Of a DNA stretch of 64,000 nucleotides, positions 54,023 to 58,940 are shown piece after piece. A program made the translations under genes and the position numbers. Source of the DNA: Phycisphaerales bacterium (lineage in GTDB: Bacteria > Planctomycetota > Phycisphaerae > Phycisphaerales > UBA1924); assembly GCA_030149165.1 (NCBI GenBank), contig JASBRY010000008.1:186001-250000 (forward strand). Reading direction: 5' to 3'. Each line of letters begins with the position of its first letter. The stretch's first letter is position 1. The notes below the pieces were generated by a model. It did no database searches, was not told the DNA's origin, and saw only the letters and a list, made by a program, of their open reading frames with translations.

Positions 54023-54144
54023 TCTGCTGAACCTCTGCGTTCGAAGAGTGGTATATAGGTACACATAGATAGCTATCCAGCGATGCCCAACCCCCTCTGA
54101 GGGCCATGGATCGCATATCGTGGATCAACGAAAGGCACACGAAC

Positions 54145-55809
54145 ATGCAGAATCTTCGCGCCAACGCACTCGTCGCGACCCTCGCGGTTGCTGTCCTCGG
54201 CTCCGCCGTCGCTGTCACCACCAACGCGACTCGATCCACAGATTACGGCTTCTACGACCCCATCGTTGATGTCCACACGATGATCGAGCACCTCTATGTT
54301 GAGGAACCGACTGACAATGAGATCCAGATCGGCGCGATCAACGGCATGCTCGAGAATCTCAACGATCCATACACCACATTCATCCCGGCGGATCTTGAGC
54401 GTGATTTCAACAAGGACATGCGCGGCGAGTATGTCGGGATCGGCGCTGAGGTCATTCTCCGAGATGGTTGGCTGACCATCGCGTCCCCAATGGACGACTC
54501 ACCTGCCTGGAAAGCTGGCGTCATGGCGGACGACAAGGTCGTCAAAATCGACGGAGAATCCACTTGGGGTTACACGATCAACGACTCGATCGACAAGCTT
54601 CTCGGCGAACCCAACACCAAGGTGACCATCACCGTCGAGCGTAATGGCGTTGAGCAGGACATCACGATCACACGCGATCACATCAAAGTCCAAGCCGTGA
54701 AGGGTTTCATGCGCAGCGATGGTGGTGAAGGTCCTTGGCGCTACATCATCGACGACTCGACCAACATCGCATACATCCGGCTGACCCAATTCATCCCTGG
54801 ATGCGCTCAGGAACTCAAAGAAGCAATCGAGACCGCGACGGCGAACGCTGGAGGTGAGCTCGAGGGTTTGATCCTCGACCTGCGTTACAACCCAGGAGGG
54901 CTGCTCAATGAAGCCGTGGAAATTGCGGATCTGTTCCTCGAAGACGGCGTGATCGTTTCAACGAAGGGAAGAGCGCACGAGGATCGCTCTGAGAGTGCGC
55001 ACAAAAAAGGCACACTCCCCCACTTCCCGATGGTCACACTGATCAACGGCAACTCCGCGTCAGCATCCGAGATTCTCTCAGGAGCGCTCTCGGATCATGG
55101 ACGCTCGATCATCATCGGCGCCCGCTCGTTCGGGAAGGGGTCAGTCCAGACGGTGCGTCCGCTTGAATCGGGCGCCGGGACTCTCAAGATGACTGAGCAG
55201 TACTACTACCTCCCATCTGGACGCTTGCTCCATCGCCGAGATGATTCGACCGTCTGGGGTGTGGACCCAACTCCTGGGTACTACCTCTCGATGACTGATC
55301 AAGAGCGGATCAATATGCTCAATGCTCGCAGAGAAAACGAGATCCTCCACAAAATGGAAGGCCCTGAACTCACGAACACCGGTGAAATTCTCGAGGCACT
55401 CGATGATGTGCAGCTCACTGCGGCGGTCAATGTGCTGAACAATCGTCTCGCTACTGGTGAGTTCGCGCCTGTCGGGATTGAGTCCAACCAACCAGATGAT
55501 GCCGCGTTCGAGGAACTGGTCGCGCTGCGTTTGCAAGAGGAACGCATCCTGCGTCAGCTCGAGCGGATCAATCGGCGCGTGACCGCGATCGAGAGCGTGG
55601 TGGATACTGATAAAGATCCCCTCGATCTGTGGGACGATGATCGTCAGATCGCTGGTGGTCAGCTCATCGTCAAGGATGCGGATGGGAATCTCGTGACTAC
55701 GCTCGAGATCACTGGACAGAACCTTGAACGCTGGTTGATCGATGCGGATGTCAAGGTACTGGACAGCGAAGACATCGAGGGTGGTCTCAATGGAGAAGTC
55801 GACCAGTGA
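54145..55809 (+). CDS. S41 carboxy-terminal processing peptidase
   Basis: 554 aa from the ATG at 54145, with GAAAGG upstream (a longer frame from 54106 lacks it). A signal sequence covers residues 1-25. A PDZ domain precedes the catalytic fold, where LINGNSASASEILSGALSDH gives the serine and ARSFGKGSVQTVRPL the lysine of the Ser-Lys dyad. The C-terminal 200 residues extend beyond Ctp cores and end in a helical, glutamate-rich tail. It trims envelope proteins at their C-termini. It overlaps tsaD by four bases, the first link of a four-gene run. Confidence 0.92.
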   Translation: MQNLRANALVATLAVAVLGSAVAVTTNATRSTDYGFYDPIVDVHTMIEHLYVEEPTDNEIQIGAINGMLENLNDPYTTFIPADLERDFNKDMRGEYVGIGAEVILRDGWLTIASPMDDSPAWKAGVMADDKVVKIDGESTWGYTINDSIDKLLGEPNTKVTITVERNGVEQDITITRDHIKVQAVKGFMRSDGGEGPWRYIIDDSTNIAYIRLTQFIPGCAQELKEAIETATANAGGELEGLILDLRYNPGGLLNEAVEIADLFLEDGVIVSTKGRAHEDRSESAHKKGTLPHFPMVTLINGNSASASEILSGALSDHGRSIIIGARSFGKGSVQTVRPLESGAGTLKMTEQYYYLPSGRLLHRRDDSTVWGVDPTPGYYLSMTDQERINMLNARRENEILHKMEGPELTNTGEILEALDDVQLTAAVNVLNNRLATGEFAPVGIESNQPDDAAFEELVALRLQEERILRQLERINRRVTAIESVVDTDKDPLDLWDDDRQIAGGQLIVKDADGNLVTTLEITGQNLERWLIDADVKVLDSEDIEGGLNGEVDQ

Positions 55810-56867
55810 TTGTTCTGGGGATTGAGTCCTCGTGCGACGAAACCGCCGCGGCCGTGATCGAAGACTCGATGACCGTGCGTTCGTCCGTCGTCGCGTCGCA
55901 GACCGAAACCCACGCTGAATACGGTGGGGTGGTCCCAGAGATCGCATCTCGACTCCACGAGATCAACATCCTCCCTGTGCTCAAGCAAGCACTCGATGAA
56001 GCGGGCGTTGAGCTTCAGCAACTCGACGCGATCGCTGTGGGACATCGTCCTGGTTTGGTTGGTTCGTTGTTGGTCGGATTGTCCGCTGCGAAAGCGTTGA
56101 ACTGGTCACTCAACAAACCACTCATCGGCGTCGACCATGTGCACGCGCACCTCTATGCACCGTTCCTTGATGCTCAAGACGCACCAACTTTCCCAGCGTT
56201 GGGACTGGTGATCTCTGGTGGCCATACTTCCCTGTATCGCATGGACTCCCCAACCAGACTCACACGCTTGGGCGCCACAATCGATGACGCGATCGGTGAA
56301 GCGTTTGATAAAGCGGCGTCGATTCTTGATCTGCCCTATCCCGGCGGTCCACACATCGACAAGCTGGCGCAAGATCCGAATGCGAACGACCGGCTCGTCG
56401 ACTTCCCGATCTCAAGACTCGGGAAAGACTCGCTGGATTTCAGCTATTCGGGACTCAAGACCGCGTTGTTGTATGCCGCGAAAGGCAAACCGAATCCGCC
56501 CAAACTCCCTGGGAAACCTCAGCGGATCGCGGAGCCTGCTCCAGAGTTGAATGACAATCGTGTTCGCGATCTGTCTGCGAGTTTCCAGAGAGCCGCGGTG
56601 CGAGCGCTGACCATCAAAGCTCAACGAGCGCTGAACACGAATCCCGATCTCACCTCCATCATCATCGGAGGCGGCGTCAGCGCCAACACGCGTGTCCGAT
56701 CCGAGTTCGCAAAGCTCGCGCAGGACAACGACTGCTCGCTGTATATCCCAGAGATGAAATACTGCGTGGACAACGCCGCGATGATCGGGGCGCTGGGATC
56801 GGTGATGTTCGTCGCTGGTCATCGCGATGATCTCTCGCTTGCCGCGACCCCAACCACGGCGTGCTGA
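55806..56867 (+). CDS. tsaD: tRNA threonylcarbamoyladenosine synthase subunit TsaD
   Basis: 353 aa. TsaD transfers the threonylcarbamoyl group to A37 of ANN-reading tRNAs. VLGIESSCDETAAAVIED begins the ATPase fold, and the metal motif is DHVHAHLYAPF (HxxxH). The family block YGGVVPEIASRLHEINILPV is present. It starts at a GTG that overlaps the ctp stop by four bases (GTGA), so its translation is coupled. Members of the t6A pathway are not adjacent. Confidence 0.96.
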   Translation: MIVLGIESSCDETAAAVIEDSMTVRSSVVASQTETHAEYGGVVPEIASRLHEINILPVLKQALDEAGVELQQLDAIAVGHRPGLVGSLLVGLSAAKALNWSLNKPLIGVDHVHAHLYAPFLDAQDAPTFPALGLVISGGHTSLYRMDSPTRLTRLGATIDDAIGEAFDKAASILDLPYPGGPHIDKLAQDPNANDRLVDFPISRLGKDSLDFSYSGLKTALLYAAKGKPNPPKLPGKPQRIAEPAPELNDNRVRDLSASFQRAAVRALTIKAQRALNTNPDLTSIIIGGGVSANTRVRSEFAKLAQDNDCSLYIPEMKYCVDNAAMIGALGSVMFVAGHRDDLSLAATPTTAC

Positions 56868-56870
56868 TTG

Positions 56871-57428
56871 ATGAAGTCCATTGATGACATCTTTGAGTCT
56901 CTGGATAAACCGATCGTGCGCGATCCGCATCCTGCCTCATTTCCAGAGGACGAGCTGCTCAAATCCTGCACCATCACCAAAGGGCGCGTCTCAGGTCCCG
57001 GCGGTCAGCACAGAAACAAAGTCTCGACGCATATCACGGTCGCACACGATCCAACCAACATCAGCGCCCAAGCGGGGGAACGGCGGAGTCCCGAAACCAA
57101 CCGCAAGGTCGCGCTCAAACGGCTGCGCTATAAACTCGCGATTGGGATTCGTGTACCAGTCCCAGATGGTGATATCCGATCCGAGCTCTGGCGCTCTCGC
57201 TGCAAGAAGGGCAAGATCGCGTGCTCATCCAAGCATCAGGACCACCCCTCGATGATCGCTGAGGCGCTCGATGTGCTGGATGCATGTGGATTGGATCCAT
57301 CCAAAGCCTCGACTCGACTCGAATGCACGGCTTCGCAGCTCATCAAACTCATCGCATCGCATCCACCTTCTTTGGTGTATCTGAATCAGGAACGCGAGAA
57401 GCACAACCTCCACCCACTCAAACACTAA
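56871..57428 (+). CDS. Release-factor-like GGQ protein (ribosome rescue candidate)
   Basis: 185 aa from the ATG at 56871 (a TTG at 56868 is the only alternative). The peptidyl-hydrolase motif is SGPGGQHRNKVST at about residues 41-53, the class I release factor GGQ loop. The rest of the domain fits RF-like proteins (AQAGERRSPETNRKVALKRL). Codon-recognition domains are absent, so it cannot act as a normal RF1/RF2. It resembles ArfB (YaeJ) or PrfH-like rescue factors, though the C-terminal 60 residues are longer than in ArfB and not basic enough to be sure. It sits between tsaD and hflX with close spacing. The link to stalled ribosomes is inference. Confidence 0.8.
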   Translation: MKSIDDIFESLDKPIVRDPHPASFPEDELLKSCTITKGRVSGPGGQHRNKVSTHITVAHDPTNISAQAGERRSPETNRKVALKRLRYKLAIGIRVPVPDGDIRSELWRSRCKKGKIACSSKHQDHPSMIAEALDVLDACGLDPSKASTRLECTASQLIKLIASHPPSLVYLNQEREKHNLHPLKH

Positions 57429-57438
57429 CGATCACGGC

Positions 57439-57444
57439 TACTAT
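57439..57444 (+). promoter_or_regulatory. Candidate -10 box for leaderless hflX message (TACTAT)
   Basis: TACTAT, eight bases before the ATG at 57453. No Shine-Dalgarno site. It suggests hflX may be made separately from the genes before it. Confidence 0.4.
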
Positions 57445-57452
57445 CCCTATCC

Positions 57453-58940
57453 ATGCCTGAACCGACCGAACGCCAATCCATCAAAGTCCAAGCGGAACGC
57501 ACTGTCCTCGCGGCTGTCCGACTCCCGGAATCCACTTACGACCAGCGCGATCCGTTCGGAGAGCTTGGAGAACTCGCGAAGCAAGCGGGCGCGGTTGTTG
57601 TTGGCGAGATCGAGCAGCGCCGTGATCGTCCCGAAGCGGGGACCTACATGGGAGTCGGGAAGCTCGAAGAACTCAAGGGCGCCTGTGAAGAGCTTGATGC
57701 ATCGACGATTATCTTCGATCACGACCTGTCCCCGAAACAGATCGCAAACATCGAGAAGATCACAGAACGCAAGGTGCTGGATCGGTCTGAACTGATCCTT
57801 GATATTTTCGCGTCTCGTGCTGTGTCCCATGAAGCAAAGCTGCAGGTCGAGATCGCTCAGCTTGAGTACACCTATCCACGGCTCCGCGCGATGTGGTCTC
57901 ACCTTGAACGCATCGTCGGCTCTGGAGGGATTGGGGGCGTGGGCACCAGAGGTCCTGGTGAGCAGCAGCTCGAGATCGACCGCCGGTTGGTGCAGCGCCG
58001 AAAGACGATCCTGCAGCGCGAACTCGAAGAGATCCAAGCACGCAAGCGTCGCGCTGTTGAGAAACGCAATGTGGACTTCTACACCGTCGGCTTGGTCGGA
58101 TACACCAACGCCGGGAAGTCCACGCTGTTCAACACGCTGACTGAAGGCGGCGCGTACGCGGATGACCGCGTGTTTGCGACGCTCATGACACGCACGCGCC
58201 AGTGGGACCTCGGGGGTGGACACACCGCGATGCTCTCCGACACCGTCGGATTCGTGCGTGATCTCCCCCACCACCTCGTCGCGTCATTCCGTGCGACGCT
58301 TGAAGAAGCGATGCACGCGGACCTGATCCTGATCGTGCTGGACATCTCTGATCCATCGGTCGAGCTGCACTATGAGACTGTCCTGACGACGCTTGACGAT
58401 CTCTTTACAGAGGTCGAAGAACGCGAAGCGAAAGAAGCAGAGCAGCACAAGCGGGATGGGAAGGAATACCACCATTACGAGCGTCCGGAGTACCTCGTGC
58501 TGCTTAACAAAGCGGACAAGCTGACGGACCACGCGGATCTGCTGTATTGGCAGACGCGTGTCCCCGGTGCGATCGCGCTCTGTGCGCTTCCGGGAGATCC
58601 TGATGCCGAGGATTGCCCGCTCGGACAGGATGATTTGATCGCTCGCGTCAAACGCCACTCAATCGGTCCGATCGCGGAGCTCGTGATCACGGTGCCGCTG
58701 AGTGATTCCAAGACGATCCACACGATCGAGAACCGGACCGAGGTGCTCGATCGCGAGTATGTCGATCAGTTCGTGAATCTGCGGACCAAGATCGGATCGC
58801 GACAACTCGCGCAGCTCCGCGCTCGCGGCGCGGACATGGTCGTCCACACTCCCGACGGCACGCTCGTCGAGAATCCATCACGCGCGCGCGGCTGGACGGA
58901 AGATTCCGACTCACCATTCGCGAAGAAGCTCGACTTCTGA
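57453..58940 (+). CDS. hflX: Ribosome-splitting GTPase HflX
   Basis: 495 aa. The HflX nucleotide-binding start is LGELAKQAGAVVVGEIEQRR with GTYMGVGKLEELK, followed by the GTPase core: G1 GLVGYTNAGKST, G3 DTVGFVRDLPHHL, and G4 LLNKADK. The Gly-rich VGSGGIGGVGTRGPGEQQLE linker is a family hallmark. HflX splits stalled 70S ribosomes after heat or antibiotic stress. The C-terminal tail of about 60 residues is longer than usual. With the release-factor-like gene just before it, a ribosome-rescue theme is suggested. Confidence 0.95.
   Translation: MPEPTERQSIKVQAERTVLAAVRLPESTYDQRDPFGELGELAKQAGAVVVGEIEQRRDRPEAGTYMGVGKLEELKGACEELDASTIIFDHDLSPKQIANIEKITERKVLDRSELILDIFASRAVSHEAKLQVEIAQLEYTYPRLRAMWSHLERIVGSGGIGGVGTRGPGEQQLEIDRRLVQRRKTILQRELEEIQARKRRAVEKRNVDFYTVGLVGYTNAGKSTLFNTLTEGGAYADDRVFATLMTRTRQWDLGGGHTAMLSDTVGFVRDLPHHLVASFRATLEEAMHADLILIVLDISDPSVELHYETVLTTLDDLFTEVEEREAKEAEQHKRDGKEYHHYERPEYLVLLNKADKLTDHADLLYWQTRVPGAIALCALPGDPDAEDCPLGQDDLIARVKRHSIGPIAELVITVPLSDSKTIHTIENRTEVLDREYVDQFVNLRTKIGSRQLAQLRARGADMVVHTPDGTLVENPSRARGWTEDSDSPFAKKLDF

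Follow-up and report, generated by a model that had tools for sequence, protein, structure and literature searches.

A stand-alone GGQ protein with a predicted FIS-like C-terminal domain, encoded between tsaD and hflX in a Phycisphaerales genome

The window analyzed here is a whole stretch of 64,000 nucleotides from a Phycisphaerales bacterium (contig JASBRY010000008.1), and we are concerned with one of its genes, which we call rfl (our own label) and which encodes a stand-alone GGQ protein. The open reading frame (ORF) listing bore out the gene order and spacing given in the initial annotation: ctp, tsaD, rfl and hflX lie consecutively on the plus strand, with an overlap of 4 bases between ctp and tsaD, a gap of 3 bases between tsaD and rfl, and a gap of 24 bases between rfl and hflX (Table 1). 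The listing starts rfl at a TTG at position 56868, but the closest relative has TTC at this site, so the ATG at 56871 is the likelier start. For ctp, whose ORF opens at 54106, we used the in-frame ATG at 54145, as the annotation had done.

A comparison of rfl with its counterpart in the genome G004 revealed 45 nucleotide differences, with 10, 3 and 32 of them on the first, second and third codon positions, respectively. This distribution, together with a GPGGQ sequence that all 56 aligned rfl proteins share without change and that supplies the GGQ motif expected of ArfB, argues that rfl is a real gene under protein-level selection. Other residues invariant in the 56 rows are R49, N50, R73, N78 and R85, and, in the C-terminal half, R111, Q157 and R176. 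The rfl protein reached the general Pfam RF-1 domain alone (48.7 bits, cut-off 35, residues 35-91). With the curated models it scored 29.2 bits for ArfB (NF006718, cut-off 100, residues 36-63 only), 39.3 bits for PrfH (TIGR03072, cut-off 166.65, residues 35-91), 35.5 of 400 bits for RF1 and 39.5 of 370 bits for RF2. A simple ArfB or a simple PrfH is ruled out by these cut-offs, and the rfl family carries no name in the libraries searched. The same domain scan detected neither codon-recognition nor GTPase-interacting domains around the GGQ domain of the 186-residue protein, which agrees with the annotation's claims that the protein lacks codon recognition and is longer than ArfB. By profile, the best solved relatives over the GGQ part are PrfH, RF2, RF1 and C12orf65, of which PrfH (9mor, 1.3e-14) is the closest. 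A model of the whole protein, built from the 56-protein alignment, had a predicted local distance difference test score (pLDDT) of 94.7 and a predicted template modelling score of 0.88, and its GGQ part aligned with RF2, RF1 and PrfH at Z 7.5-8.3.

Because a fold search with the whole model barely tested the C-terminal part, its 88 residues were predicted separately (pLDDT 95.7). Foldseek gave no match under E 0.001 for this domain. When the top chains were realigned, FIS-type helix-turn-helix domains ranked first, with Z 5.5 and 0.7 Å over 41 residues for ZraR (structure 1ojl, which we take to be ZraR), Z 5.4 for NtrC1 and Z 5.1 for NtrC4. The Pfam family HTH_8 (Fis family) was the commonest weak match; it was picked up in 9 of the 55 members, at E 6.2e-4 in the best case, and not in the rfl protein of the window. 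An hhalign comparison with 24 FIS domains from relatives, taken from 30 loci of which six were left out when the motif found no domain, gave 89.3% in the same register, and all controls (five column shuffles and one reversed profile) stayed under 1%. These results indicate that the C-terminal core is a FIS-type helix-turn-helix, as predicted by the modelled structure and independently by the profile. Charge counts on the window protein and the 56 rows showed no ArfB-type basic tail and no positively charged extension of the C12orf65 type: the last 25 residues have a net charge of +1 in the window protein and a mean of +2.8 over the 56 rows, and the last 31 residues of this genome's ArfB have +8.

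Going by the known chemistry of its family, the GGQ domain would be expected to hydrolyse peptidyl-tRNA in the ribosome. We consider that the rfl protein probably rescues ribosomes as a codon-independent peptidyl-tRNA hydrolase, representing a planctomycete family in which a GGQ domain is joined to a FIS-like helix-turn-helix. The analysis establishes the sequence, conservation, domain make-up and predicted fold of the protein, whereas we infer its catalysis, its ribosome binding and the role of its C-terminal domain. In the most likely mechanism, the GGQ loop would enter the peptidyl-transferase centre and free the nascent chain, and the C-terminal domain, standing where other factors have a reader of stop codons or the basic tail of ArfB, would decide which stalled complexes are bound. 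The annotation had suggested a distinct rescue class, and we keep this as a suggestion, in line with the absence of a codon domain, the greater length, the coexistence with ArfB and the C-terminal domain of its own. A tentative and rather doubtful extension is that this class is spread through Planctomycetota and that the FIS-like domain directs the GGQ domain to a substrate unserved by known factors, for example a split 50S-peptidyl-tRNA complex in bacteria without RqcH.

Several results weigh against this reading. The Z score of 5.5 lies below the level that the tool calls safe. With a mean net charge of -2.3, the helix-turn-helix core is on the acidic side, and therefore need not bind nucleic acid and may only pack or dimerise. 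A tree of GGQ domains over 69 columns was mostly unresolved, with 5 of 41 inner branches starred, and the fork that holds all rfl-family rows (support 81/89) also contains 2 of the 3 PrfH rows; we draw no descent from this tree. Among the 30 genomes of the order that were sampled, two nearly complete ones, G044 and G314, had no full-type match (roughly 89 bits or more), meaning that rfl is dispensable there.

We found no description of a GGQ-helix-turn-helix architecture in the ribosome-rescue literature searched, a search that mostly did not reach subscription journals. A paper that describes RF1/2, ArfB, PrfH, ICT1, C12orf65 and MRPS35 has no such protein in its sections on these factors (PMC6514570). 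If the reading is true, the rescue inventory of Planctomycetota, which belong to a wider group that rarely has RqcH, would be incomplete, since it would lack a conserved GGQ hydrolase targeted by a different domain. Such a protein would also show that a release domain can be directed in a new manner, with neither a codon nor an empty mRNA channel as the guide.

Full-type matches were counted by eye in 56 of 61 genomes, a set of relatives that also contains the genome of the window; the five without one are G007, G017, G028, G044 and G052. Across Planctomycetota, 93 of the 292 genomes sampled had a full-type match, comprising 28 of 30 in the order, none of the 9 from the class's remaining orders and 65 of 253 outside the class. 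Some of the matches with lower scores (95-135 bits), among them those of families f16 and f32, have diverged further, and the seven that were translated keep both halves. In a divergent branch (L188-L194; f16, f32 and other families) the GGQ half and the C-terminal half are both retained, with identities of about 29-37%. The best 80 loci listed carry mostly planctomycete names, with a few unnamed or oddly labelled (Leptolyngbya, Nealsonbacteria, Kuenenia). On viral contigs, matches were limited to the GGQ part in nearly all of the best 80 of 92 relatives; in one contig, L249, the match extends to residue 162 at 28% identity. Twelve plasmid records matched, none covering 80% of the query. The genome G002 has two GGQ-helix-turn-helix copies (L041 and L085) on different contigs, each beside ctp, tsaD and hflX, which possibly reflects contamination.

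The genome of the window encodes four proteins with an RF-1 domain: ORFs of 351 and 370 amino acids, which we read as being of the RF1/RF2 kind from their length and domain order, a true ArfB (L003, 134.1 bits, cut-off 100) and the rfl protein. It also has tmRNA (144.4 bits). ArfB was found in 35 of 41 genomes, so ArfB and rfl coexist. No RqcH-family match over the cut-off was found in these 41 genomes, the window's own included, and 9 of the 41 gave weak sub-threshold matches. The ArfB gene is followed directly by a tsaB-like gene (68.9 bits, cut-off 69.3; L003:1435-2606, G000 C10), and thus both stand-alone GGQ genes adjoin a gene of N6-threonylcarbamoyladenosine (t6A) synthesis. This pair recurs in 18 of 30 ArfB loci, 17 of them in the window's genus and the other in G024. 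G052, one of the genomes without a full-type rfl, encodes a short GGQ protein that has a basic tail and that we read as C12orf65-like (L080:6210-6548). Short GGQ proteins with lysine-rich tails also occur in other planctomycete families (L175-L186), and some of those genomes also have the full-type gene.

Table 1. Coordinates of rfl, its domains and the adjacent genes in the window
Feature	Position	Strand	Model or support
ctp, C-terminal processing peptidase (S41) with PDZ domain	54145..55809	+	TIGR00225
tsaD, t6A tRNA-modification transferase subunit, GTG start	55806..56867	+	TIGR03723
rfl, stand-alone GGQ protein, 185 amino acids from ATG (186 from TTG 56868)	56871..57428	+	
GPGGQ putative catalytic motif, residues 43-47 of the 186-residue reading	56994..57008	+	invariant in 56/56 rows
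rfl C-terminal domain, residues 99-186	57162..57425	+	predicted alone, pLDDT 95.7
predicted rfl FIS-like helix-turn-helix core, residues ~122-166	57231..57365	+	structure and profile comparison
hflX, ribosome-splitting GTPase family	57453..58940	+	TIGR03156

The three neighbours of rfl are ordinary members of their families by curated cut-offs, with no difference seen: the ctp product scored 283.8 bits (cut-off 218.6), the tsaD product 380.7 bits (cut-off 296.1) and the hflX product 367.4 bits (cut-off 216.75). We compared 52 rfl loci of the order, 53 having been fetched and L080 dropped because it holds the different short GGQ protein; the fetched stretches mostly spanned about 6 kb on each side of rfl, and some were cut by contig ends. 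Near rfl, tsaD was found in 37 of the 52 loci, ctp in 31 and hflX in 32, and with tsaD so frequent the gene run is more than chance. By family, the counts for tsaD, ctp and hflX were 31, 27 and 27 in f1 (n = 32), 5, 3 and 5 in f2 (n = 6) and 1, 1 and 0 in f4 (n = 4); the 10 loci of f3, f5 and f6 had none of the three genes. None of the three was near rfl in 22 further loci, 21 of them outside the order. Among 80 named loci, partly from the same genomes, tsaD was near rfl in 30, ctp in 25 and hflX in 22.

The position of hflX varies within the order. In 14 of the 52 loci, every one of them from the window's genus, it lies downstream of rfl on the same strand; in 18 others it lies upstream of rfl and is encoded on the opposite strand. 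At L114, hflX is directly upstream of rfl in the same direction, an order unlike that of the other loci. Flipping ctp-tsaD-rfl within the arrangement hflX< ctp> tsaD> rfl> trx< hemolysin-like genes< would give the order in the window. At L108, rfl has trx and two hemolysin-like genes on the side and strand expected from such an inversion; the strand of the DUF1015 gene at L050 disagrees with it. The names hemolysin-like (two ORFs) and DUF1015 are presumptive labels, given from the look of the ORFs. Gene order makes it likely that, in some members of the window's genus, an inversion of ctp-tsaD-rfl brought hflX to the position immediately after rfl. The four-gene run is thus best read, from these comparisons, as a lineage-limited neighbourhood, hflX-ctp-tsaD, where rfl is the neighbour of tsaD in two families and in some loci of a third. 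Lineage history appears to be the main reason why rfl has these neighbours, hflX among them.

The annotation had suggested that the GGQ protein and HflX could form a rescue route. In a rescue operon of this kind, the rfl protein would release the nascent chain and HflX would then split the ribosome. Such a pathway is reasonable biology, because release by ArfB before splitting by HflX has been proposed, according to a review (PMC8786322). The order and 24-base gap in the window, the nearness of hflX in 32 of 52 loci and the co-directional arrangement at L114 all fit it. The annotation would have been refuted by an adjacency found in this genome alone. Other genomes share it, but where families are labelled it is confined to f1 and f2 of one order: hflX is near rfl in 27 of 32 and 5 of 6 loci there, but in 0 of 14 loci of f3-f6 and 0 of the 22 further loci. 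Even among the 32 linked loci, hflX stands upstream on the opposite strand in 18. Moreover, hflX and tsaD stay together without rfl, since they lie about 1.7-2.1 kb apart, divergent and with no rfl alongside, in six of 23 genomes, which were mostly picked because rfl is unlinked or absent there (G038, G040, G056 and G060 have rfl at a distance or on a separate contig; G044 and G052 have no full-type match). On this linkage evidence a GGQ-HflX operon is rejected as a conserved unit, and gene order does not support an ArfB-like pathway of the rfl protein with HflX; we regard a rescue operon of the two as improbable.

Two other roles can be weighed. In bacteria that lack RqcH, the rfl protein may act on split 50S subunits still carrying peptidyl-tRNA, in the manner of the mitochondrial factor mtRF-R (C12orf65), which works on split large subunits (PMC8786322). 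The lack of RqcH matches over the cut-off in the 41 genomes agrees with this, as does the count of rqcH in 7 of 211 members of the Planctomycetes, Verrucomicrobia and Chlamydiae group in a survey (PMC11633108). C12orf65 is also among the closer solved relatives, and rfl lacks the basic tail with which an empty mRNA channel could be sensed. By profile, however, the GGQ domain is nearer to PrfH and RF2 than to C12orf65, and we think this specific role unlikely. Alternatively, the protein could be a helix-turn-helix protein for regulation or binding, with a vestigial or repurposed release domain. The helix-turn-helix core would fit this, but GPGGQ and the surrounding residues are invariant in 56 rows, and the core is not basic, its charge of -2.3 seeming to speak against DNA binding; we give this explanation very little credence. 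Rescue by a codon-independent hydrolase is thus the reading that we prefer.

Compared with known systems, the rfl protein shares with ArfB (YaeJ)/ICT1 a stand-alone GGQ domain and the absence of codon recognition. Unlike them, it has no lysine/arginine-rich tail, is longer and has a folded C-terminal domain, and a true ArfB exists in the same genome. RF1 and RF2 differ by the codon-recognition and GTPase-interacting domains that rfl lacks. PrfH provides the closest solved GGQ domain by profile, but the match is limited to the GGQ part and falls below the cut-off; RtcB, the neighbour expected of PrfH, was not among the five window genes scanned. C12orf65/mtRF-R has a GGQ domain and a similar length (166 amino acids for 7a5h_C), but rfl resembles it only in the GGQ part and in the flank on the N-terminal side of that part. 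According to PMC8786322, mtRF-R also has a positively charged C-terminal extension, which rfl does not. The C-terminal core of rfl resembles, in predicted fold and profile, the FIS-type helix-turn-helix of sigma54 activators such as ZraR and NtrC; unlike these, it is acidic, has no AAA+ domain and is joined to a GGQ domain.

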